From Holdemanella biformis DSM 3989 (GTDB taxonomy: Bacteria > Bacillota_I > Bacilli_A > Erysipelotrichales > Erysipelotrichaceae): a stretch of DNA of 46,350 nucleotides. Each line of letters opens with the position of its first letter. Position 1 is the first letter of the stretch. Both the position numbers and the translations under genes were made by a program. The notes under the pieces are model-generated. The model was given only the letters and a program-made list of their open reading frames with translations, did not search any database and was not told the DNA's origin. The stretch spans positions 45,175-91,524 of the forward strand of contig NZ_DS996851.1 of assembly GCF_000156655.1 (NCBI RefSeq), in the 5' to 3' direction. Shown piece after piece: positions 1,751 to 36,232 of the stretch.

Positions 1751-3097
1751 ATGGATCCAATCGTTTTAAAACAAAGAGAATTTTATAATCAACATAAAAC
1801 ACTGGATATTCATTTTAGAATAAACGCCTTAAAAACTTTAAAAAAGGCAATTTTAGCTTATGAAGACAGAATTAACGAAGCTATTAAAATGGATGTCGGA
1901 AAATCAAATTTTGAGTCTTATATGTGTGAAGTTGGGTTAGCTTTAAGCGAATTAACTTACATGGAAAAACATGTTCATAAATTTTCAAAAGAAAAAACAG
2001 TTTATACGCCATTATCTCAATTTTTATCACGTAGCTTTGAAAAGCCAAGTCCTTATGGTGTGGTGTTAGTCATTAGTCCTTGGAATTATCCTTTTTTACT
2101 TTCTATTGACCCATTAATTGATGCACTTGCAGCTGGAAATACGGTGGTATTAAAACCTAGTGAATTTAGTCCATACACATCACAAGTCATCAAAGATATG
2201 ATTGAAGAATATTTTGATTCTGAATATGTAGCTTGTGTACTTGGAGATAGTGAAGTGAGTTCTAAATTACTAGATTCAAAGTTTGACTACATTTTCTATA
2301 CAGGATCAAAACGTGTAGGAAAAATTGTGATGAATAAAGCTAGCCAACATTTAACACCAGTCACTCTAGAATTGGGAGGAAAAAGCCCTTGTATCGTTGA
2401 TAGGGATGTTGATGTTAAATTAGCGGCACGACGAATCGTTTTTGGAAAATATTTGAATTGCGGACAAACTTGCGTGGCACCAGACTACATGTTAGTACAT
2501 GAATCGATAAAGGATAGATTTATCGAATGTGTGATATCCGAAATTAAGCGTCAATATGCGAGCTTAGATGATTATGGTCATATTATTAATGAAAAGCACT
2601 ATAAGAGGATTTTAGAGTTGATTGATATGGATAAGGTTGTTTATGGTGGAAAACATCATAATCTACAAATTGAACCAACGGTAGTGGATCGTGTGGATTT
2701 TTCAGATCCAATTATGCAGGAAGAAATATTTGGCCCCGTTATGCCAATATTGACATATTCAAATTTAGATGTAGTTATAGATAAAATCAATTCCATGCCT
2801 TCTCCTTTAGCTTTATATATTTTCACAAATAATAAACAAGTATCAAAGAAAGTAACGAGTGAAGTTTCATTTGGTGGAGGTTGCATCAATGATGTGGTGA
2901 TTCACTTAGCTACAAGCAATATGGGCTTTGGTGGTGTTGGTGAAAGTGGTATGGGTTCATACCACGGAAAGCGTGGTTTTGATACGTTTAGTCATACAAA
3001 GAGTATTGTGGATAAAAAAAGAATCATTGATTTACCTATGCGTTATCAGCCTTATACAAAATTGAATGAGAAATTGATTCGCTTTTTCTTAAGATAA
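1751..3097 (+). CDS. Aldehyde dehydrogenase, class-3/fatty-aldehyde type
   Basis: This enzyme oxidises an aldehyde to the carboxylate with NAD(P). Catalytic residues are all present: Asn112 (in SPWNYPF), Lys135 (LKPSE), Glu207 (LELGGKSP) and the nucleophile Cys241 (NCGQTCVAPDY). At 448 residues, without the longer N-terminus of classes 1 and 2, it resembles the ALDH3/YwdH group, which favours medium- and long-chain or aromatic aldehydes. The Shine-Dalgarno GGAGG sits inside the end of the upstream alcohol dehydrogenase gene, so the two are translationally close and share one promoter. No terminator follows directly, but a -10-like TATAAT lies just before the next gene. Class assignment is confident; substrate is inference. 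Confidence 0.9.
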   Translation: MDPIVLKQREFYNQHKTLDIHFRINALKTLKKAILAYEDRINEAIKMDVGKSNFESYMCEVGLALSELTYMEKHVHKFSKEKTVYTPLSQFLSRSFEKPSPYGVVLVISPWNYPFLLSIDPLIDALAAGNTVVLKPSEFSPYTSQVIKDMIEEYFDSEYVACVLGDSEVSSKLLDSKFDYIFYTGSKRVGKIVMNKASQHLTPVTLELGGKSPCIVDRDVDVKLAARRIVFGKYLNCGQTCVAPDYMLVHESIKDRFIECVISEIKRQYASLDDYGHIINEKHYKRILELIDMDKVVYGGKHHNLQIEPTVVDRVDFSDPIMQEEIFGPVMPILTYSNLDVVIDKINSMPSPLALYIFTNNKQVSKKVTSEVSFGGGCINDVVIHLATSNMGFGGVGESGMGSYHGKRGFDTFSHTKSIVDKKRIIDLPMRYQPYTKLNEKLIRFFLR

Positions 3098-3113
3098 TCT
3101 TTATAATGAATAT

Positions 3114-3599
3114 ATGGAAAAAAAAGAAAAATTTGAGTATGACATCGATTTAGGTGCCATCATGGACTATGTAGAAAACCGTTTTATGTTAGTAATAAAA
3201 GATGAGGATTGGACACAGGAGGAAATTGAAATGTTGAATAGTGGTATTGATCTTCATTTTTGTTACACAAATGATATTGCGATATTTGTGCTTGAGGGTG
3301 GAGATATTGACAATAGTGATTTTTATTTCAATATTCAAGAATGTGATTGGAAAGATCATTTGTTTGCGAGTGACTGCTTAGATGTCGATATTATTTTACT
3401 AAATAAGGCAAATGAGATTTGTTTTAAAAAGTCAAAAACTTTGACAAAAGAACAAAGTCAAATTATTAAGGATTGTCTAAAACAACAAAATGAGGTATCC
3501 TTTATGCCAAGTGAATATGATGTGAATGTGCAAGGAATCCAGAGTGCATATGAACCATATGAGCTAGTACGTTTTGAAAAATGTGCAATAAAACTATAA
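3114..3599 (+). CDS. Unrecognised acidic 161-aa protein
   Basis: I do not recognise this protein. It is acidic, without a signal peptide or membrane segment, and rich in Asp/Glu with several aromatic residues, so it is probably a soluble cytoplasmic protein. It lies 16 bases after the aldehyde dehydrogenase gene and immediately before the ACT/DUF711 pair: its TAA at 3597-3599 overlaps the Shine-Dalgarno of the ACT gene. No Shine-Dalgarno is visible before its ATG. Instead TATAAT at 3102-3107 ends six bases upstream, so a transcript from there would begin at or near the ATG (leaderless). An internal start at the second Met is possible. Function unknown. Confidence 0.7.
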   Translation: MEKKEKFEYDIDLGAIMDYVENRFMLVIKDEDWTQEEIEMLNSGIDLHFCYTNDIAIFVLEGGDIDNSDFYFNIQECDWKDHLFASDCLDVDIILLNKANEICFKKSKTLTKEQSQIIKDCLKQQNEVSFMPSEYDVNVQGIQSAYEPYELVRFEKCAIKL

Positions 3600-3610
3600 G
3601 GAGAATGATG

Positions 3611-3880
3611 ATGAAGGCTGTTATTAGTGTAATTGGAAAAGACAAAGTAGGAATTTTGGCTATGATTGCCAATGAATGTGCAAACTACAATTTAAATGTA
3701 TTGGATGTAACACAAACAATTGTAGATTCAATGTTTACCATGACTATGATTGTGGCAATTGATGAAATGAGTATTCCATTAAATGAATTTGCAGAAAGAA
3801 TGGAGAACTTAGGAAAAGAAAAGAACTTAGTAATTCGTTGTATGCATCAGGATATTTTCAATTCTATGCACAAAATTTAA
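3611..3880 (+). CDS. ACT-domain protein (UPF0237 family)
   Basis: This is an 89-residue single ACT domain, the fold used to sense small molecules such as amino acids. It begins MKAVISVIGKDKVGILAMIA, typical of the UPF0237 family. Three in-frame ATGs (3605, 3608, 3611) follow AAGGAG at 3598-3603; the third has the best spacing (7 bases) and gives the usual family length. It is followed 12 bases later by a DUF711/UPF0210 gene, the conserved partner in many Firmicutes. The ligand and biochemical role of the pair are not established to my knowledge; a regulatory partnership is the natural inference. Confidence 0.88.
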   Translation: MKAVISVIGKDKVGILAMIANECANYNLNVLDVTQTIVDSMFTMTMIVAIDEMSIPLNEFAERMENLGKEKNLVIRCMHQDIFNSMHKI

Positions 3881-3892
3881 TGAGGTGTTCCT

Positions 3893-5248
3893 ATGCAGAC
3901 AAATGAAATTTTAGAAACAATAAAGATGATTGACGAAGAATATTTGGATATTCGTACAATCACAATGGGTATTAGTTTATTGGATTGTATGGATCCAGAC
4001 ATTCATGTTTCATGTCAAAAGGTTGAAGAAAAGATTTGCCGCTTAGCTAAAGACTTAGTAAAAGTAGGAAATGATTTCAGTAAGACTTATGGTATTCCAG
4101 TTGTTAATAAGAGAATTAGTGTAACACCAATTGCAATGTTAGTGGCTTGTTCTGGCGGAAATCCAGTTGAATATGCATTAACTTTAGAGCGCTGCGCTCA
4201 AAAATTAGGTGTAGATTTTATTGGTGGATATTCTGCACTTGTACAAAAAGGATATGCGGCAGGAGACAATGCGTTGATTGAATCCATTCCTGAAGCCTTG
4301 GCGAAAACACAACATGTTTGTGCAAGTGTTAATGTAGGTAGTACAAAAGCTGGAATCAATATGGATGCCGTTGCACAAATGGGTCGTATTGTGAAGTGTT
4401 GCGCGGAATATACAAAGGATGATAATTGCTTGGGTGCTGCAAAATTAGTTGTATTCTGTAATGCACCTGAAGATAATCCATTTATGGCAGGAGCTTTCCA
4501 TGGAGTAGGAGAAGCTGATTGTGTAATCAATGTTGGTGTATCCGGACCTGGTGTTGTGCGTGCTGTATTAAGTAAAGCCGATAAATCATTGCGTATGGAT
4601 CAGATTGCAGATTTAATCAAACGTACAGCTTTTAAGATTACTCGTATGGGACAATTAGTTGGAACTGTTGCGAGTGAAAAATTGGGTGTTCCATTTGGAA
4701 TTGTGGACTTGTCTTTGGCACCAACACCAGCAATTGGTGATAGTGTTGCCTACATTTTAGAAGAAATGGGATTGGAAACATGTGGCGCTTATGGAACAAC
4801 TGCATGTCTTGCGATGTTGAATGATGCCGTTAAAAAAGGGGGCGTTATGGCAACAAGTAATGTTGGTGGATTATCTGGTGCTTTTATTCCTGTAAGTGAA
4901 GATGCAGGAATGATCAATGCGGCAAGAACAGGTGCATTAAAATTAGAAAAATTAGAAGCAATGACTGCTGTATGTAGTGTTGGATTGGATATGATCGTAA
5001 TTCCAGGAGAAACAAGTGCAAGTGTTATTTCAGGAATTATTGCGGATGAAGCAGCAATCGGTATGGTTAACACAAAAACGACAGCCGTACGTGTGATTCC
5101 AGCTATTGGAAAAGATGTTGGGGATGAATTAGATTTTGGTGGTTTATTAGGTGCAGGTCCTGTTATGCCAATTTCTCAAATTTCAAATGACGTTATGATC
5201 AATCGTGGCGGAAGAATTCCAGCTCCTTTACAAGCGTTAAAGAACTAA
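3893..5248 (+). CDS. DUF711/UPF0210 (PFL-like) family protein
   Basis: The 451-residue protein has the length and the glycine-rich conserved blocks of UPF0210 (for example [39 protein letters not shown] and a [11 protein letters not shown] end). The family is often annotated as pyruvate-formate-lyase-like, but that is a fold or similarity label, and I do not see an activase-type glycyl-radical motif that would prove the chemistry. It is translationally close to the ACT gene (GAGGTG Shine-Dalgarno at 3882-3887) and ends at a clear terminator. It is probably a cytoplasmic enzyme whose activity is sensed or controlled by the ACT partner. Family call firm, function unknown. Confidence 0.88.
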
Positions 5249-5254
5249 TCATTT

Positions 5255-5278
5255 AGGAAGCTTTTGCTTCCTTTTTTT
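5255..5278 (+). terminator. Rho-independent terminator after DUF711 gene
   Basis: AGGAAGC (5255-5261), a TTTT loop, GCTTCCT (5266-5272), then a T-run. It closes the ACT/DUF711 transcript. Confidence 0.9.
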
Positions 5279-5383
5279 ATATTGCTTTTTCTTTGGTTAG
5301 ATTATAGAATATATGTGTTTTAAAAAAGCTTTAATTAAAAATGTTAATTTAATATTCAGTTATATTATAGAGAGGAAAATAGA

Positions 5384-5734
5384 ATGACAATTGAAGAATG
5401 TTATATAAAAATGGGTGCTAATTATCAAGATGTTATTAAACGTTTACCAAGTGTTAGTATGATTGAGAAATTTGCACTAAAATTTAGAGAAGATACGAGT
5501 TTTCAAGAACTTGAAAAAGCTTTAAATGATAAACAAGTGGAAATAGCTTTTCGTGCAGCTCATACATTGAAAGGGGTATGCATGAATTTAGGCTTTGATC
5601 ATTTGTATAAACCAAGTTTTGAAATCACAGAAAGTTTACGTGCAGGAAACTTGGAATTGGCTTTGCAACAATTTGATGCAGTGAAAGAGCAATATACGAA
5701 AACAATTGATGCTTTAAATGAATTTGCAGCATAG
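5384..5734 (+). CDS. Stand-alone HPt (histidine phosphotransfer) protein
   Basis: This 116-residue all-helical protein carries the HPt signature AAHTLKGVCMNLG at residues 58-70, with His60 as the predicted phospho-acceptor. HPt proteins relay phosphoryl groups between hybrid sensor kinases and response regulators. Here it stands alone, with a terminator on each side, and no histidine kinase or receiver gene is in the window, so its partners are elsewhere. A GAGAGGAAAA Shine-Dalgarno precedes the ATG. A TATATTAT-type -10 lies at 5361-5368, but no convincing -35 is visible. Family call strong; pathway unknown. Confidence 0.85.
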   Translation: MTIEECYIKMGANYQDVIKRLPSVSMIEKFALKFREDTSFQELEKALNDKQVEIAFRAAHTLKGVCMNLGFDHLYKPSFEITESLRAGNLELALQQFDAVKEQYTKTIDALNEFAA

Positions 5735-5755
5735 ATCTCGAAAGAGGTCTTTTTT
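5733..5755 (+). terminator. Terminator after HPt gene
   Basis: AGATCTC (5733-5739), GAAA tetraloop, GAGGTCT (5744-5750) with one G-U pair, then a T-run. The stem begins inside the TAG stop codon. Confidence 0.85.
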
Positions 5756-5961
5756 CTTGTTGAATGAGCACCTCGATATTCACGCTTTAAAAATTTAAAG
5801 GCACATTCTATTACCGAAAAATGATTTTTTTTCAAAAAATGGGAATAGGAAATGCGTTATGCAATTTATTGTTAGAAAGAAATATTTAGATGAGTAGATG
5901 GTAACAAGAAGAATGATAATTTATTATTTGTAAATAAATGTAAAATAATTTCATTTTTATC

Positions 5962-5989
5962 TTGCAAGTTTTCAGAAAATGAATATAAT
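5962..5989 (+). promoter_or_regulatory. Promoter of the T-box operon
   Basis: TTGCAA at 5962-5967 and TATAAT at 5984-5989, 16 bases apart, with a predicted start near 5996, just before Stem I of the T-box. The 200 bases before it (5756-5961) are AT-rich and show only a short CTTTAAA/TTTAAAG inverted repeat near 5780 and no gene. Confidence 0.75.
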
Positions 5990-5995
5990 AATTTA

Positions 5996-6220
5996 CATAA
6001 ACAAAGAAGAGAAGAAGTACAAAAGTAATTTCTCTAAAGAGAGATAACGGAAGGTGTAAGTTATTGTGAAATCTTTTGGAACGTGTCTTGGAGTTATTTG
6101 GTCGAAGATTTGAGGCTAAATCGTGAATTCGCGTTAAGAATGAGGTGTCATCTGTATAGGCAGATGGAATTTTGGTGGTACCGCGTATATTACGTCCAAT
6201 GTATATTTGGGCGTTTTTTT
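5996..6220 (+). promoter_or_regulatory. T-box riboswitch, predicted arginine type (specifier CGU)
   Basis: The T-box sequence TGGTGGTACCGCG lies at 6173-6185 and the terminator is CGTCCAA (6193-6199), TTGGGCG (6207-6213) and a T-run. Stem III is CATCTG (6149-6154) with CAGATG (6161-6166). In Stem I, AGTA (6016-6019) faces GAA (6079-6081) in the loop-E part of the specifier bulge; the helix above is CAAAAG (6020-6025) with CTTTTG (6073-6078), and below is GAGA (6009-6012) with TCTT (6086-6089). The three bases after GAA are CGT (6082-6084), followed by a purine, as in the solved glycine T-box architecture. That reads arginine. The UGGN bulge is UGGU, which expects a discriminator A on the tRNA. 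Uncharged tRNA-Arg should promote readthrough into the transporter operon. Confidence 0.9.
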
Positions 6221-6305
6221 ATTGGAAAGGGTGTGTGTGAATGGAAAGTGATCGACGATATGAAATAATTTTTGATTTACACACGAAGAAAGGTAGGAAT
6301 AAAAC

Positions 6306-7067
6306 ATGAAAAAAATTATTAAATTAGGTATGGCGGCATTAACCGCATTAACAATGGCAGGATGTTCAAGTGAATCAGAGGATGTAAAAACAATTACTGT
6401 GGGGATTTCTCCAGATTATGCTCCTTATGAATCTGAAAATAAAAAGGGAGATATCGTAGGATTTGATCCAGATATGATGAAGTGTTTTGAAGAATATTTA
6501 AGTGACGAAGAAGGTGTTACTTACAAGTTAGAAATGAAGAAGATGGATTTTGATAATATCATTACTCAGCTTCAAGGAGACCAAATTGATGTAGGTATTT
6601 CTGGATTTACATATGATTCAAAACGTAAAGTAGAATGGTCAGATCCATATTTAGGATCAAGTCAAGTTGCGGTAGTTCCTAATGATTCAGAAATTGCATC
6701 GGTTTCAGATTTAGAAGGTAAATCTTTAGTTGCTCAAACAGGAGCTACTGGTGAGACGGCTGCAAAAGAAGTTAAGGATGCTAAAGTGACTGGATTAAAG
6801 AATGTGCAAGACATTATGAATGCATTAAGTGCAAATCAATATGATGCAGCAATCGTTGACTTGGGTGTAGCTAAAAACTATGTGAAGAGTGGCGAATTTA
6901 AAATGTTAGATGAATCTTTAATGGATGAACAAAACTATATTATTGCGAAAAAAGGAAATACAGATGTGATTGACAAGATGAATACATGTATTAAAAAATT
7001 CTTGGCTAGCGATGATTATGTTAAGTTGTGCAAAAAATATGGTTTATCTCCATTAGAAACAAAGTAA
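6306..7067 (+). CDS. Amino-acid ABC transporter, substrate-binding lipoprotein (predicted arginine/basic amino acid)
   Basis: A family-3 solute-binding protein, 253 residues. A lipoprotein signal peptide ends in MAGC with Cys20 as the lipidated residue, so the mature protein is anchored outside the membrane. The body has the usual start TITVGISPDYAPYE, FDPDMMKCF, and the IITQLQGDQIDVGISGFTYDSKRK block that contacts amino-acid ligands in this family. It is the first gene after the arginine-type T-box and is followed by permease and ATPase genes, so it is the receptor of a complete importer. Substrate specificity is inferred from the specifier codon, not from binding-site residues; a broader polar amino-acid range is possible. 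Confidence 0.9.
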   Translation: MKKIIKLGMAALTALTMAGCSSESEDVKTITVGISPDYAPYESENKKGDIVGFDPDMMKCFEEYLSDEEGVTYKLEMKKMDFDNIITQLQGDQIDVGISGFTYDSKRKVEWSDPYLGSSQVAVVPNDSEIASVSDLEGKSLVAQTGATGETAAKEVKDAKVTGLKNVQDIMNALSANQYDAAIVDLGVAKNYVKSGEFKMLDESLMDEQNYIIAKKGNTDVIDKMNTCIKKFLASDDYVKLCKKYGLSPLETK

Positions 7068-7087
7068 AGGAAAAGTGAGGAAAGTGT

Positions 7088-7771
7088 ATGTTTGTTGCGA
7101 TTGATCAGGTATTTACATTAGAGAATATACTCTATTTGGCAAAGGGTGCGCTGTTGTCGGTTGCGATTGCAGCGCTTTCCCTTTTAATTGGTTTAGTGCT
7201 TGGCATTTTAGGAGCAAGTGGAAGAAGAAGCAAACATAAGGTGCCTAGAGCTATAGCGTTTGTGTATGTCACAATCATTCGTGGAACCCCATTGCTTCTA
7301 CAGATTTTGATTATTTTCTCTGTTATTCCATCGATTTATACGGCATTTACAGGCAATGTATTAAGAATCAATCCCATCGTAATTGGTATGATAGCTTTAA
7401 GTATTAATTCCGGTGCTTATCAAACTGAACTTTTGCGTTCAGGCATTAATGGAGTAGATAAAGGTCAATGGGAAGCTTGTGAAACATTAGGATTATCGAA
7501 TTGGAAAACAATGAAGTTAGTAATTTTACCCCAAGCTTTCAAACGTGTTGTACCACCATTGATCAGTGAATTTATTACTTTGATTAAAGATAGTTCTTTG
7601 ATTAGTTGTATTGGAGCGGTTGAACTATTAAAAGGAGCTCAAGTTATTGGGGCTGAATATTATGATGTAATGTCGCCATATATGCTTGCGGCAATATTCT
7701 ATTTGATTATGACATGTATTGTCTCTTGTATTGGAAATAAAGTGGAAAAGAGGTTGGCTGTAAGTGATTAG
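7088..7771 (+). CDS. Amino-acid ABC transporter permease (HisMQ/GlnP family)
   Basis: A 227-residue inner-membrane permease with about five membrane segments. The EAA-type loop ([20 protein letters not shown], near residues 122-141), which docks on the ATPase, is well preserved, as is the family signature with [11 protein letters not shown] near residue 61. Start ATG with GTGAGG upstream. It lies 20 bases after the binding protein and overlaps the ATPase gene by 8 bases, so the three are one transport operon. Only one permease gene is present, so it should act as a homodimer. Confidence 0.92.
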
Positions 7772-14552: not shown

Positions 14553-15812
14553 ATGAACAAAAGATTTTTAACAATTGCTGCAGCTTTATCTATGGGTGTT
14601 GCATTAACTGCTTGTAGCAGTGGAGGAGATGAAGGAAAAACTGGTGGTTCTAGTGTTGCAAATGCTGACAAACCATTAGTATGGTATAACCGTCAACCTT
14701 CTAACAGTTCTACTGGTGAATTAGACATGGATGCATTAAACTTCAACAAAGATACTTATTATGTTGGTTTCGATGCAAATCAAGGTGCTGAACTTCAAGG
14801 ACAAATGATTAAAGAATATATCGAAAAGAATATCGATACATTAGATCGTAACGGAGATGGCGTTATCGGTTACGTATTAGCTATTGGTGATGTTGGTCAC
14901 AATGACTCTATTGCTCGTACAAGAGGTGTTCGTAAGGCATTAGGTACTGGTGTTGAAAAAGATGGTGAAATCGTAAGTGATCCAGCTGGAATCAACAATG
15001 ATGGTTCTTCTAAGAACGTTAAAGATGGCTCATTAGAAATTAATGGAAAAACTTATACAGTTAGAGAACTTGCTTCTCAAGAAATGAAGAACTCTTCAGG
15101 TGCAACTTGGGATGCTGCTACTGCTGGTAACACAATCGGTACATGGACTGCATCATTTGGTGATGAAGTTGACGTTGTAGCTTCTAACAACGATGGTATG
15201 GGTATGTCAATGTTCAATGCTTGGTCAAAAGAAAACAAAGTTCCTACATTCGGATACGATGCTAACTCAGATGCAGTTGCTGCAATCGCTGAAGGATATG
15301 GTGGAACAATTTCTCAACATGCTGACGTTCAAGCTTATTTAGCATTAAGAGTATTACGTAATGCTTTAGATGGTGTTGATATCGATACAGGTATCGGTAC
15401 AAAAGATGATGCTGGAAATGTTTTAACTGATGATGTTTATACATACAATAAGGATCAACGTTCTTACTATGCATTAAACGTTGCTGTTACTGCTGACAAC
15501 TATAAAGATTTCTTAGATTCAACAGTTACTTATGCTCCAGTTTCTAACCAATTAGGTGAAAAAGATCACGCTAAGAAGAGCGTTTGGTTAAATATCTACA
15601 ATGCTTCTGATAACTTCTTAAGCTCAACTTACCAACCATTATTAGAAAAATATGATGACTTATTGAATTTAGATGTTGAATATATCGGTGGAGATGGACA
15701 AACAGAATCTAACATTACAAACCGTTTAGGAAACCCAGACAAATATGATGCATTCGCAATTAACATGGTTAAGACTGACAATGCAGCTTCTTACACAGGA
15801 ATCCTTAAATAA
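14553..15812 (+). CDS. mglB: Galactose/glucose-type ABC transporter substrate-binding lipoprotein MglB
   Basis: A 419-residue lipoprotein: signal peptide ends LTAC with Cys21 lipidated, followed by a Gly/Ser-rich linker. The body matches MglB: VWYNRQPSNSSTG, YYVGFDANQGAELQGQM, a calcium-loop-like DRNGDGVIGYVLAIG and GHNDSIARTRGVRKAL, and NNDGMGMSM later. E. coli MglB is about 330 residues; this one is longer because of an insert near residues 140-175 and the linker. It binds D-galactose or D-glucose outside the cell and delivers them to MglC/MglA. A strong intercistronic hairpin after the gene suggests higher expression than its partners. The cre site fits sugar control. Confidence 0.93.
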   Translation: MNKRFLTIAAALSMGVALTACSSGGDEGKTGGSSVANADKPLVWYNRQPSNSSTGELDMDALNFNKDTYYVGFDANQGAELQGQMIKEYIEKNIDTLDRNGDGVIGYVLAIGDVGHNDSIARTRGVRKALGTGVEKDGEIVSDPAGINNDGSSKNVKDGSLEINGKTYTVRELASQEMKNSSGATWDAATAGNTIGTWTASFGDEVDVVASNNDGMGMSMFNAWSKENKVPTFGYDANSDAVAAIAEGYGGTISQHADVQAYLALRVLRNALDGVDIDTGIGTKDDAGNVLTDDVYTYNKDQRSYYALNVAVTADNYKDFLDSTVTYAPVSNQLGEKDHAKKSVWLNIYNASDNFLSSTYQPLLEKYDDLLNLDVEYIGGDGQTESNITNRLGNPDKYDAFAINMVKTDNAASYTGILK

Positions 15813-15905: not shown

Positions 15906-17414
15906 ATGGCAGATAAGAATGAAGAATTGGTCTTATCTATACGTGGAATGAGTAAGTCTTTTGGACGTAACCGTGTTTTGGATCACATTAATTTGGATTT
16001 AAAACCAGGTACAGTTATGGGACTTATGGGAGAAAATGGTGCTGGTAAATCAACAATGATGAAATGTCTATTCGGGACATATCAAAAAGATGAAGGTACG
16101 ATTTTTTTAGAAGGAAAAGAAATTAATTTTTCCGGACCTAAAGAAGCACTAGAAAATGGTATTGCCATGGTGCACCAGGAGTTAAATCAATGTCTTGAAA
16201 GAAATGTTAAAGACAATTTATTCTTGGGACGTTATCCCACAAATTCATTAGGCATGGTAGATGAAGATCGAATGAAAAAGAAATCATCTGAGCTTTTTAG
16301 AAAGCTTGGCATGACGGTAAACTTAGATACACCAATGCGAAATATGTCAGTTTCACAAAGACAGATGTGTGAAATTGCCAGAGCAATTTCATATAACTCA
16401 AAAGTTATTGTATTAGATGAACCAACATCTTCTTTAATGACACAAGAGGTTGACAAATTATTTGAAATGATGCGTATGCTTAAAAAACAAGGCATTTCGC
16501 TGATCTATATTTCGCATAAAATGGATGAAATTTTTGAAATTTGCGATGAAGTATCGGTTCTAAGAGATGGAAAAATGGTTATGACAAAACCTACTTCAGA
16601 AACCAACATGAATGAGTTGATTGCAGCCATGGTAGGTCGTTCATTGGATAACCGATTCCCACCTGTTGATAATGTTCCTGGAGAACCAATGTTATCTATT
16701 CAACATGTATCAACAAAATATGAGCCATACTTAAAAGATATTACATTTGACGTTAAAAAAGGTGAGATTTTCGGTCTATACGGTTTAGTAGGAGCTGGAC
16801 GTACAGAGTTGTTAGAAACGATTTTCGGTATCCGTACAAGAGCCTCAGGTCGTGTTTATTTTGACAATAAGTTAATGAACTTTAATAGTGCTAAAGAAGC
16901 AATTGAACATGGTTTTGCCCTGATTACTGAAGAGCGTAAAGCAAATGGATTGTTCTTAAAGTGTGATTTAACATTCAATACAACGATTGCAAATTTACCT
17001 TCTTATATGAGCAAGGTAGCACTTTCTGATAATAAAATGGTTCAAGCTACGAATAAAGAAATCAAAACCATGAGAACTAAGTGTATGGGACCAAATGATG
17101 CGATTACAAGTCTATCTGGTGGTAACCAACAAAAAGTTATCTTCGGTAAATGGTTAGAGAGATCACCAAACGTATTTATGATGGATGAACCTACACGTGG
17201 TATTGACGTAGGTGCTAAATATGAAATTTACGAATTGATCATCAAAATGGCTAAACAAGGAAAAACTATTATTGTAGTTTCAAGTGAAATGCCAGAAATC
17301 TTAGGTATCACAAACCGTATTGGCGTTATGTCAAATGGACGCTTAGCCGGTATTGTAAATACAAAAGATACTAACCAGGAAGAGTTGTTAAGACTCAGTG
17401 CAAAATACCTATAA
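15906..17414 (+). CDS. mglA: Galactose-type ABC transporter ATPase MglA (two nucleotide-binding domains)
   Basis: The 502-residue protein has two ABC domains, as in MglA/RbsA sugar importers. The first Walker A is GENGAGKST (42-50), with VIVLDEPTSSL as Walker B. The second domain has the degenerate loop GLVGAGRTE near residue 295, signature LSGGNQQKV and MMDEPTRGIDVGAKYEIYE. The family normally has one degenerate domain, so this is ordinary. The gene follows mglB after a hairpin and precedes mglC by 11 bases. It drives import from the cytoplasmic side. Confidence 0.95.
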   Translation: MADKNEELVLSIRGMSKSFGRNRVLDHINLDLKPGTVMGLMGENGAGKSTMMKCLFGTYQKDEGTIFLEGKEINFSGPKEALENGIAMVHQELNQCLERNVKDNLFLGRYPTNSLGMVDEDRMKKKSSELFRKLGMTVNLDTPMRNMSVSQRQMCEIARAISYNSKVIVLDEPTSSLMTQEVDKLFEMMRMLKKQGISLIYISHKMDEIFEICDEVSVLRDGKMVMTKPTSETNMNELIAAMVGRSLDNRFPPVDNVPGEPMLSIQHVSTKYEPYLKDITFDVKKGEIFGLYGLVGAGRTELLETIFGIRTRASGRVYFDNKLMNFNSAKEAIEHGFALITEERKANGLFLKCDLTFNTTIANLPSYMSKVALSDNKMVQATNKEIKTMRTKCMGPNDAITSLSGGNQQKVIFGKWLERSPNVFMMDEPTRGIDVGAKYEIYELIIKMAKQGKTIIVVSSEMPEILGITNRIGVMSNGRLAGIVNTKDTNQEELLRLSAKYL

Positions 17415-17425
17415 AGGAGATAATT

Positions 17426-19084
17426 ATGACAAATACAGTTACAAATATTCTTAGTCGTGATGAAGAGCTTGCACTACGTAAACCGATTGAAGATTATGTA
17501 GGGAAGATTCAAGCTGAAATTGATGAACTAAGAGAAGAAGGAACAAATAAAGTATTGGAATATTCTGAAGAAATCGAGGTTCTAAAGAGAGATAAAATTT
17601 ATACTAAAAGCGAAAAAGAAGCTCGTATTTCAGAATTGAATACAAAATTACAAAAAGCTAAAGAAATCGAAGTTCAAAATAAACAGCCAATTAATGAAAA
17701 AATTGCAGTAGCTGAAAAATATTTAAAGGATCACTATCAAACAGATTACTACAACAAAGTTGTTGAAAGTAATAAGTATGAGGTTCAAAAAGCTAAGGCA
17801 GACTATGATAAAAAATTAAAAGAATTAGAAAAAGAACACAAAGATATTTTATCAGGTCTTAGTGATAAAGAAGAAATTAAAGAAGAGAACTTTATTTATA
17901 AGAACCGTTTGTTCGATGCAAAACTTGAATATACTAAAAATATGCAAGAGGCAAAAGATCGTAAACATGATGCGTTTACATTTGAATATCACTTAATCGA
18001 TTTATTGAAGATGTCAAACTTCTCATTTGCAGAAAAACAAGCTCAAAAAATCGAGAACTACAAATATTCATTTAATACTCGCGATTTCTTGTTGAAAAAT
18101 GGTTTATATATTGCGATTATTTTAGTATTCATTTTCTTATGTATCATTACACCAATTAAGAAGAATGGTTTACAACTTTTTACTGTTAATAACATTTTAA
18201 GTATTATGCAACAAGCATCTCCAAGAATGTTCTTGGCATTAGGTGTATCTGGTTTAATTATGTTAGCTGGTACTGACTTGTCCGTTGGACGTATGGTTGG
18301 TATGGGTATGACAGCCGCTACAATTATTATGCACAATGGACCTAACACGGGTTCAGTATTCGGACATGTATTTGATTTCTCAACTATGCCAGTTGGAGGA
18401 AGAATTCTTTTAGCATTAGTTGTTTGTGTTGTGTTATGTACAATGTTTACAACGATTGCCGGTTTCTTTGCAGCTAAATTTAAGATGCACCCATTCATTT
18501 CTACAATGGCTAACATGTTAGTTATCTTTGGTTTAGTAACTTATTCAACTAAGGGTGTTTCTTTTGGTGGTATTGATCAATCAATTCCAGGGAAAATTAT
18601 TCCTAAAGTTGGTGGCATTCCTACAATTATTTTGTGGGCTGTTGCTGCAGTTGTGATTGTTTGGTTCATTTGGAATAAAACAAAATTTGGTAAAAACTTA
18701 TATGCCGTAGGTGGAAACCCAGAAGCTGCTTCTGTATCTGGTATTTCAGTGTTTAAAGTAACTCTTGGAGCCTTCATCATGGCAGGTATCTTATACGGAT
18801 TTGGTTCATGGTTAGAATGTATTCGTATGATTGGTTCTGGTTCAGCTGCGTATGGACAAGGATGGGAAATGGATGCGATTGCTGCCTGTGTAGTAGGTGG
18901 TGTATCATTTACTGGTGGTATCGGTAAAATTTCTGGTGTAGTAGTTGGTGTATTGATCTTTACTGCATTAACTTATTCATTGACAATTTTAGGTATCGAT
19001 ACTAACTTACAGTTCGTATTCTCAGGAATTATCATTCTTATTGCCGTAACTCTTGACTGCTTGAAATACGTACGTAAAAACTAA
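17426..19084 (+). CDS. mglC: Galactose-type ABC permease MglC with a long N-terminal coiled-coil extension
   Basis: Residues about 218-552 form a normal MglC permease (about 335 residues, as in E. coli), with membrane segments from about 226 and the conserved LMLAGTDLSVGRMVGMG-like and NPEAASVSGISVFKVT regions. Residues 1-217 are extra: highly charged, Lys/Glu-rich and helical, with long stretches of heptad-like pattern (for example KADYDKKLKELEKEHKD), so a cytoplasmic coiled coil is likely. The single reading frame has no internal Shine-Dalgarno/ATG at the junction that would explain it as a separate gene. It may tether or regulate the transporter. Core call very strong; role of the extension unknown. 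Confidence 0.92.
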   Translation: MTNTVTNILSRDEELALRKPIEDYVGKIQAEIDELREEGTNKVLEYSEEIEVLKRDKIYTKSEKEARISELNTKLQKAKEIEVQNKQPINEKIAVAEKYLKDHYQTDYYNKVVESNKYEVQKAKADYDKKLKELEKEHKDILSGLSDKEEIKEENFIYKNRLFDAKLEYTKNMQEAKDRKHDAFTFEYHLIDLLKMSNFSFAEKQAQKIENYKYSFNTRDFLLKNGLYIAIILVFIFLCIITPIKKNGLQLFTVNNILSIMQQASPRMFLALGVSGLIMLAGTDLSVGRMVGMGMTAATIIMHNGPNTGSVFGHVFDFSTMPVGGRILLALVVCVVLCTMFTTIAGFFAAKFKMHPFISTMANMLVIFGLVTYSTKGVSFGGIDQSIPGKIIPKVGGIPTIILWAVAAVVIVWFIWNKTKFGKNLYAVGGNPEAASVSGISVFKVTLGAFIMAGILYGFGSWLECIRMIGSGSAAYGQGWEMDAIAACVVGGVSFTGGIGKISGVVVGVLIFTALTYSLTILGIDTNLQFVFSGIIILIAVTLDCLKYVRKN

Positions 19085-28313: not shown

Positions 28314-28326
28314 GTTCGATTAATGA

Positions 28327-28470
28327 TATAATCCAAACGTGTTTCGTATATGTCGACTAATACGGAGTCGACGTTTCTACCCCTAAACCGTAAATTCAGG
28401 GACTATGAATCAACCTACTATTTTTATTGTGTCGTGTTGATTCTCGTTTTTGTGCGAGACTTTTTTATTT
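28327..28470 (+). promoter_or_regulatory. Purine riboswitch (guanine/hypoxanthine/xanthine class) with terminator
   Basis: TATAAT at 28327-28332 is the -10. Aptamer: P1 TTCGTA (28343-28348) with TATGAA (28404-28409); P2 GTCGACT (28352-28358) with AGTCGAC (28366-28372) and loop AATACGG; core GTTTCTACC; P3 CCCT (28381-28384) with AGGG (28398-28401) and loop ACCGTAAAT. The base that pairs with the ligand is C28403 (GACTATG), which selects guanine-type rather than adenine ligands. Expression platform: GAATCAAC (28407-28414) can pair with GTTGATTC (28436-28443) as antiterminator, excluding the terminator TCTCG/CGAGA plus T-run (28442-28466). Ligand should stabilise P1 and shut the gene off. Confidence 0.92.
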
Positions 28471-35503: not shown

Positions 35504-36232
35504 ATGAAAAAGTTGATGTGTTTAAGTTTGTGCTTCGTTCTTTGCGGATGTGGGGCTATGCCTACTGCACAGAATGTTGAAGTAAAGAAAGTAAATGTAA
35601 ATGTAATTGAGGTATCTGCTTCTTCGCTTGATGAAATAGAGGAGATGGCATCAAAGGATGTTGAGGATACAAAGGAAAAGTTAGAGAGTGAAAGGAATGC
35701 ATTGGGTGAGAAAATTACAGATTTTGATACATATACGAAAAATGTAGATAAGGTAAAAGCATTTTATGACCAGGCTTTAAAACAAACGGAATTGTTGTCA
35801 ATACGACTTAGAGAATATGCATATAAGTATGCTGAACTAGTTATGAATGAAGATGCATCGTATAAGGTGAAATACAAAGATTTGAGTGGTATATATGAGT
35901 ATATTTATGATGATGCGGCTAAGACTATGTATGATATATATGATAAGACACTAAAAGATATGTATGATATATATTATGATGGAGTCATTAAGGCTGCGTA
36001 TGATGTTGTTGATTACGAGCAGTGGTATGACGCACGTTCAGACGCGTACGATGATTGGTATGATGCAAGAAGTGATGCTTATGATATATGGTATGATACT
36101 CGTTCTGATATTTATGATTTTCAATATGATTTGAGAAGTGAAGTATATGATCATGATGACAAAAGAGCTCAAAAGAAGATGGATAAGTTTAAAAAGTCAA
36201 TTCTTCGTATGAAGGAGGATGTGAATGATTAG
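35504..36232 (+). CDS. Lipoprotein with Tyr/Asp-rich 11-residue repeats
   Basis: A 242-residue protein with a lipoprotein signal ending LCGC (lipidated Cys16). Residues about 40-110 are charged and helical. From about residue 142 a pattern of about 11 residues appears, and four clear repeats lie at 174-184, 185-195, 196-206 and 207-217, of the type WYDARSDAYDx. The 11-residue period suggests a hendecad helical rod. A Lys-rich tail follows. I do not recognise the family. It is in an operon with the MerR regulator, so it is probably part of a response to an envelope signal or metabolite. Confidence 0.8.
   Translation: MKKLMCLSLCFVLCGCGAMPTAQNVEVKKVNVNVIEVSASSLDEIEEMASKDVEDTKEKLESERNALGEKITDFDTYTKNVDKVKAFYDQALKQTELLSIRLREYAYKYAELVMNEDASYKVKYKDLSGIYEYIYDDAAKTMYDIYDKTLKDMYDIYYDGVIKAAYDVVDYEQWYDARSDAYDDWYDARSDAYDIWYDTRSDIYDFQYDLRSEVYDHDDKRAQKKMDKFKKSILRMKEDVND
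36023..36154 (+). repeat. Four tandem 33-base coding repeats
   Basis: Each unit encodes (W/Q)YD(A/T/L)RS(D/E)xYDx. At DNA level the units differ mostly at synonymous sites (for example GCACGTTCA against GCAAGAAGT for Ala-Arg-Ser), so the repeats are old and kept at the protein level. Confidence 0.85.

Follow-up and report, generated by a model that had tools for sequence, protein, structure and literature searches.

MglBAC-type importers bring glucose and galactose into many gut bacteria, and the textbook picture of them is that of E. coli. The E. coli-type MglBAC is a CUT2 galactose/glucose importer. Its gene order (B-A-C), its fused double ATPase and its MglC core are shared by the locus described here. 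A different arrangement is found in Treponema pallidum, where Tp0684 (MglB-2) is the founding circularly permuted binding protein; the available sections of PMC4990184 also report permuted homologues in Gram-positives, with homologues of Tp0686 similarly distributed. ABC importers can also have a cytoplasmic domain added for control, as in MetNI and ModBC (available sections of PMC10710835). Our search of papers outside subscription returned one described permutation of MglB, and neither the permease domain analyzed below nor further permutations.

The window, i.e., the whole 46,350-nucleotide stretch of DNA that was analyzed, differs from E. coli-type MglBAC in two respects: the permease has an extra N-terminal arm of 217 residues, and MglB is circularly permuted (Table 1). 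A sugar-binding protein and a double ATPase are encoded beside the permease, as in a CUT2/BPD_transp_2 operon. The best NCBIfam match of the permease is MglC, spanning residues 217–552, and Pfam BPD_transp_2 spans residues 256–541, scoring 108.2 bits against a cut-off of 26.8. The strict MglC equivalog NF007014 scores 273.3 bits, below its cut-off of 386; therefore, we call the protein MglC-type rather than strict MglC. Likewise, MglA scores 669 bits against NF008215, for which the equivalog cut-off is 828, and none of the three Mgl proteins attains the NCBIfam Mgl equivalog cut-off.

Table 1. Coordinates of the mglBAC features, numbered from the first base of the window.
Feature	Position	Strand	Basis
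mglB, predicted lipoprotein-type sugar-binding protein, 419 aa, circularly permuted	14553–15812	+	Pfam, 5jx2, order test
mglA, fused double ATPase, 502 aa, normal length	15906–17414	+	ABC_tran twice (Pfam)
Ribosome-binding site AAAGGAG of long mglC	17413–17419	+	Read from sequence; overlaps mglA stop
MglC N-terminal arm, residues 1–217	17426–18076	+	AlphaFold2 model (75 sequences) and conservation
MglC permease core, residues 218–552	18077–19084	+	BPD_transp_2, 108.2 bits; BtuC-like fold

Other features of the window include a T-box leader (Rfam, 5995–6202) upstream of an apparent amino-acid ABC importer, as read from translations; a purine riboswitch (28324–28425) that precedes a nucleobase permease gene and a molybdenum-hydroxylase-like set, also read from translations; and a lipoprotein-like ORF (35504–36232) that repeats a Tyr-, Asp- and Trp-rich motif close to the C-terminus.

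mglC is a single intact ORF (17426–19084, + strand, 552 aa) with neither a stop nor a frameshift, and its ATG at 17426 is preceded at normal spacing by AAAGGAG. The original prediction, a permease core of normal length with a charged helical extension of 217 residues, is borne out by the ORF, the ribosome-binding site, conservation and structural modeling. The extension had been placed at 17426–18079; the start holds, and the end is one codon too far. One alternative is that the arm is an artefact of a translation start near residue 215 or of a frameshift joining two genes. A Met is indeed present at residue 196, and 35 of 56 armed sequences have Met there, but Met196 lacks a ribosome-binding site. 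The strong site at the first ATG, together with coding-type conservation in independent genomes, rules out the late start. The fusion is ruled out by the intact frame and by the 80 named loci, the best of at least 399 arm-encoding stretches found by an arm-profile scan of named genomes: arm and permease share one frame in all of these except L107, in which the break lies inside the core. Nor is a free-standing arm gene seen in 392 genomes; six matches do fall in 177-aa frames, but with E values near 1e-3. The chance that the arm is an artefact is thus close to negligible. L107 itself (5486–7178; Firmicutes bacterium CAG:791, a draft assembly) is an armed mglC frameshifted within the permease core.

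Comparison of relatives indicates that the arm is old, under selection and restricted to one clade of MglC permeases. About 105 relatives keep it, belonging to the Erysipelotrichaceae, Lachnospiraceae, Oscillospiraceae and Olsenella-type bacteria, and this spread across the sampled groups rules out a one-off of the window genome. The survey of MglC homologues also turned up relatives without it. Thus, the claim that ordinary MglC has no such domain stands for the arm-less relatives examined, but the arm is no oddity, being the rule in a large MglBAC subclass. Matches at E 1e-20 or better occur in 161 of the 294 genomes of the window's order. In 19 of the 294 the match runs from query residue 1–7 through the end at E 1e-232 or better, and the next-best match in the order after these 19 armed genomes (2e-70) is without the arm. 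Identity to the window in 18 close full-length relatives is 43–61% for the arm and 75–89% for the core, and the arm evolves faster (mean distance 0.452 vs 0.129). Fifteen pairs were compared: two show no differences, and for the remaining 13 the arm differences are commonest at third codon positions. In 15 relatives, 35 of the 217 arm positions are invariant, many of them charged or polar. Eleven distant relatives (39–45% overall identity) have arms of 210–234 residues. The number of residues before the core is 4–51 in 20 arm-less operons versus about 210–333 in armed ones, with no intermediates. In the twenty-first arm-less operon, L164, the core lies inside a longer stop-to-stop frame; an MglA–MglC fusion was ruled out there, the 935-aa frame upstream of the core having no MglA match.

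The best 80 of the at least 399 stretches come from Lachnospiraceae, Erysipelotrichaceae, Oscillospiraceae-type and Olsenella records. Cultured commensals among the armed species include Blautia hansenii, Anaerobutyricum hallii and Claveliimonas bilis. A wider phylum sample searched with the arm profile at E 0.001 gave matches in 24 of 392 genomes, as follows: 17 long MglC frames, six unrelated 177-aa frames and one other protein. An eighteenth armed genome, G559, came up through PF18610 alone. A scan of viral contigs for the arm produced 84 pattern matches, none encoding a relative. In the core tree all 52 sampled long MglCs fall under one node, with a support of 0.74 and a midpoint root, which is no strong proof. 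Of the named loci, every third one entered the tree; near-duplicates were removed, and L006, L011, L017, L019 and L158 were left out by name. Six truncated or broken MglCs (L053, L060, L072, L088, L097 and L107) were set aside separately. L003/L032 and L004/L035 are identical proteins, each reached twice; therefore, the locus counts overlap slightly. One armed mglBAC (L180, 5492–7141) lies on a plasmid (251,725 bases) of Agathobacter rectalis and is followed by genes for a response regulator, a histidine kinase and a further binding protein. The annotation of its armed permease is merely ‘sugar ABC transporter permease’. The arm is ordinary within its importer subclass, yet seems undescribed in the literature searched.

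The structure prediction that had been suggested was run for MglC and gave a helical arm in front of a BtuC-like permease. The AlphaFold2 model used 75 of 126 MglC sequences, a first model from 18 sequences having given a poor core. Its pLDDT is about 86–93 over residues 11–210 (whole-chain mean 84.7) and its pTM is 0.64; the orientation of the arm relative to the core is not fixed by the model. Helices are predicted at residues 11–37, 40–55, 61–144, 148–195 and 201–215 (27, 16, 84, 48 and 15 residues), running directly up to TM1 at residue 218. The core fold is BtuC-like (2qi9_A, E 4.8e-4; VIA Z 15.2 for HmuU and 15.1 for BtuC) and aligns with BtuC beginning at BtuC residue 10. The N-terminus of a BtuC-like permease is cytoplasmic. 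Because the core matches permeases of this type, we infer, with good support from the model, that the arm begins on the cytoplasmic side and almost certainly lies in the cytoplasm directly before TM1, where the original prediction had put it. The term coiled-coil fits the first helix, where the hydrophobic period is 3.46 residues per turn, but the long helices (3.79 and 3.05) have no clear periodicity, and long helical bundle is the safer label.

The arm has no evident kin among described domains. Residues 1–217 alone match nothing in Pfam or NCBIfam over any cut-off, which rules out a domain known to those collections, and a PDB sequence search with the arm profile gave no significant match (best E 0.13). 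Foldseek and VIA found only generic bundles, such as 14-3-3, F-BAR and XPR1, at Z 7–8.5, the noise level for helical bundles; the BAR/F-BAR protein PACSIN1, for example, matches at Z 7.5 with an rmsd of 13.4. Matches at this level exclude no PDB family.

The partner MglB, on which the original prediction was silent, is circularly permuted: its residues ~336–419 correspond to what forms the N-terminal part of an ordinary MglB. PF18610 matches at 341–411 (143.7 bits, cut-off 36.8), after Peripla_BP_4 at 65–274. Residues 38–419 align collinearly with T. pallidum MglB-2 (5jx2; E 3.5e-89). Strands of the N-terminal lobe are shifted to the C-terminus, as in Tp0684.

The arm commonly travels with a circularly permuted MglB. 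Across three sampled groups, 67 genomes have both and 474 neither. In the window's order, 19 of 294 genomes have the arm and PF18610, and 275 have neither; in the family of L042 (Lachnospiraceae), the figures are 21 and 179 of 200; in the family of L104 (Olsenella), 27 of 140 genomes are armed, all 27 with PF18610, which is absent from the 20 checked of the 113 arm-less genomes. Among the 80 named loci, 74 show an MglB, and it is permuted in every one, including L107 with its broken core frame; the six loci showing no MglB mostly lie at a contig edge. The simple rule is broken in the wider phylum sample, where PF18610 is found in 16 of 18 armed genomes and is absent from G356 and G450. Among 12 distant armed operons, the MglB order is the window's permutation in two (L154 and L156), a second cut point in seven (L144, L152, L153, L155, L157, L158 and L159), a third in one (L149) and the ordinary order in two (L145 and L146). 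The ten operons that depart from the order seen in the window are from distant Bacilli. When the MglBs of L145 and L149, one genus by grouping, are aligned, two blocks have changed places, with identities of 49% and 43%. In contrast, all 21 arm-less operons tested have an MglB with one collinear match to ordinary MglB, the reference being L169, itself one of the 21. One of the arm-less operons, L148, has a weak PF18610 match at the N-terminus of an MglB of ordinary order. Besides the ordinary order, there are thus at least three circular permutations in one permease clade, and the binding protein has been re-cut repeatedly within it. What stays constant in this clade is the arm; the order of MglB varies.

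The strict co-occurrence in the three sampled groups might mean that the arm lies outside the cell and touches MglB, hence the pairing with permuted binding proteins. We consider this very improbable. Read by eye, the arm sequence shows neither a signal peptide nor an additional membrane helix, the BtuC-like core places its N-terminus in the cytoplasm, the divergence of the arm does not track that of MglB in the larger set below, and two armed operons have an unpermuted MglB.

The reading we prefer, tentatively and at somewhat less than even chances, is that the arm serves to regulate MglA or to dock on it. In related importers the permease is a homodimer; if MglC is too, each transporter would have two arms beside the fused ATPase. 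Each arm would contact MglA, holding or modulating the ATPase, and an anionic cytoplasmic ligand might be bound by the retained residues R36, K54, K86, K152, K159, K166 and K177. The logic would resemble that of MetNI and ModBC, which have fused regulatory domains, except that here the domain is helical, unrelated to theirs, and acts from the permease.

Two results were taken as tests of this role, and both are only suggestive. Among residues that are fixed in 90% or more of 45 close sequences, nine distant sequences keep seven of 10 basic ones but one of 11 acidic ones (Fisher p 0.0075, counted on related sequences). With the core controlled, arm divergence correlates with that of MglA (partial r 0.456) but not with that of MglB (−0.003; n = 63 for both). 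When MglB and the neighboring kinase and regulator genes are also controlled, the MglA value is 0.438 (n = 30, permutation p 0.0002); in this subset MglB, given the core, correlates with the arm too (0.31). The signal rises through the quarters of MglA towards the arm (0.22, 0.31, 0.38 and 0.41), and the two halves of the core give 0.32, then 0.20. Such weakening with DNA distance would also be given by linkage plus recombination, and a recombination tract in L047 versus L050 spans the arm together with the greater part of mglA and stops near the arm–core boundary. Therefore, linkage confounds this test and accounts for part or all of the arm–MglA correlation. The tract, in two Lachnoclostridium genomes, is recent, lies at ~2700–6100 in the loci and includes the 3′ part of mglB. 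In addition, 66 MglA positions are specific to armed operons, 39 of them also in distant relatives, and they are densest in the last 25 residues, a pattern that phylogeny alone could produce.

Three other cytoplasmic roles were weighed against docking on MglA. The arm may be a scaffold or tether, bringing transporters together or keeping a partner from the cytoplasm (a sugar kinase, for instance) in place, with no action on the ATPase cycle. Long exposed helices, one predicted at 84 residues, would suit this role, as would the faster evolution of the arm; a ROK kinase gene lies upstream in the window, and some armed loci carry genes for galactokinase, galactose-1-phosphate uridylyltransferase or epimerase. 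Yet no constant partner gene emerges. Neighbors were clustered from 82 sources (80 named loci, L180 and the window), with one member of each cluster checked by Pfam and cut contigs making the counts lower bounds. The commonest besides mglBAC is a histidine kinase (at least 49 sources), followed by binding-protein-domain genes (at least 47), response regulators (at least 40), the uridylyltransferase (at least 13), galactokinase (at least 9) and epimerase (at least 8). These neighbors would fit a galactose/glucose importer; none is a constant partner that explains the arm, and we regard the scaffold as possible but doubtful.

A sensor of a phosphorylated cytoplasmic metabolite, with a logic like that of the SPX domain before the XPR1 phosphate exporter, is improbable. 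It would account for the preferential retention of basic residues, and XPR1 chains are among the structural matches (model residues 10–216; Z 7.4, rmsd 5.8, 147 aligned). However, that Z is at the tool's stated noise level for helical bundles, and the PDB sequence search was without a significant match. The mglC product has no Pfam match to SPX. Finally, the arm could be a structural passenger that aids permease assembly or stability and has no regulatory role, consistent with fast sequence divergence while length and helices persist. The invariant positions, many of them charged or polar, argue against such a passenger, and we think it quite improbable.

Acting on MglA thus stays the preferred role. 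Taken broadly, the locus could represent an importer class in which control has shifted to a permease-borne cytoplasmic helical domain on MglA while the binding protein was repeatedly re-cut, though we consider this whole picture rather unlikely. If it is true, the clade is a natural experiment on the chain order and anchor position of binding proteins. If the arm controls the ATPase, MglBAC-type importers would have a permease-borne control domain, for which we know of no precedent in the family. Repeated permutation in one operon clade would allow one to test why proteins are re-cut in nature and what re-anchoring gains, and the armed permease and its repeatedly permuted binding protein are a pair that deserves follow-up.

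Set beside the described systems, a large importer branch appears to depart from E. coli, with a cytoplasmic arm on the permease and a differently wired binding protein. The permutation of the window MglB is the same as that of T. pallidum Tp0684, whereas for the permease Tp0686 the available sections of PMC4990184 mention no N-terminal domain, unlike the window MglC. The type II importer permeases BtuC and HmuU share the core fold (Z ~15), and their aligned chains cover the core only, leaving the arm without a counterpart in the alignments. The added domains of MetNI and ModBC have other folds and are carried on the ATPase, whereas the domain in the window is carried on the permease.
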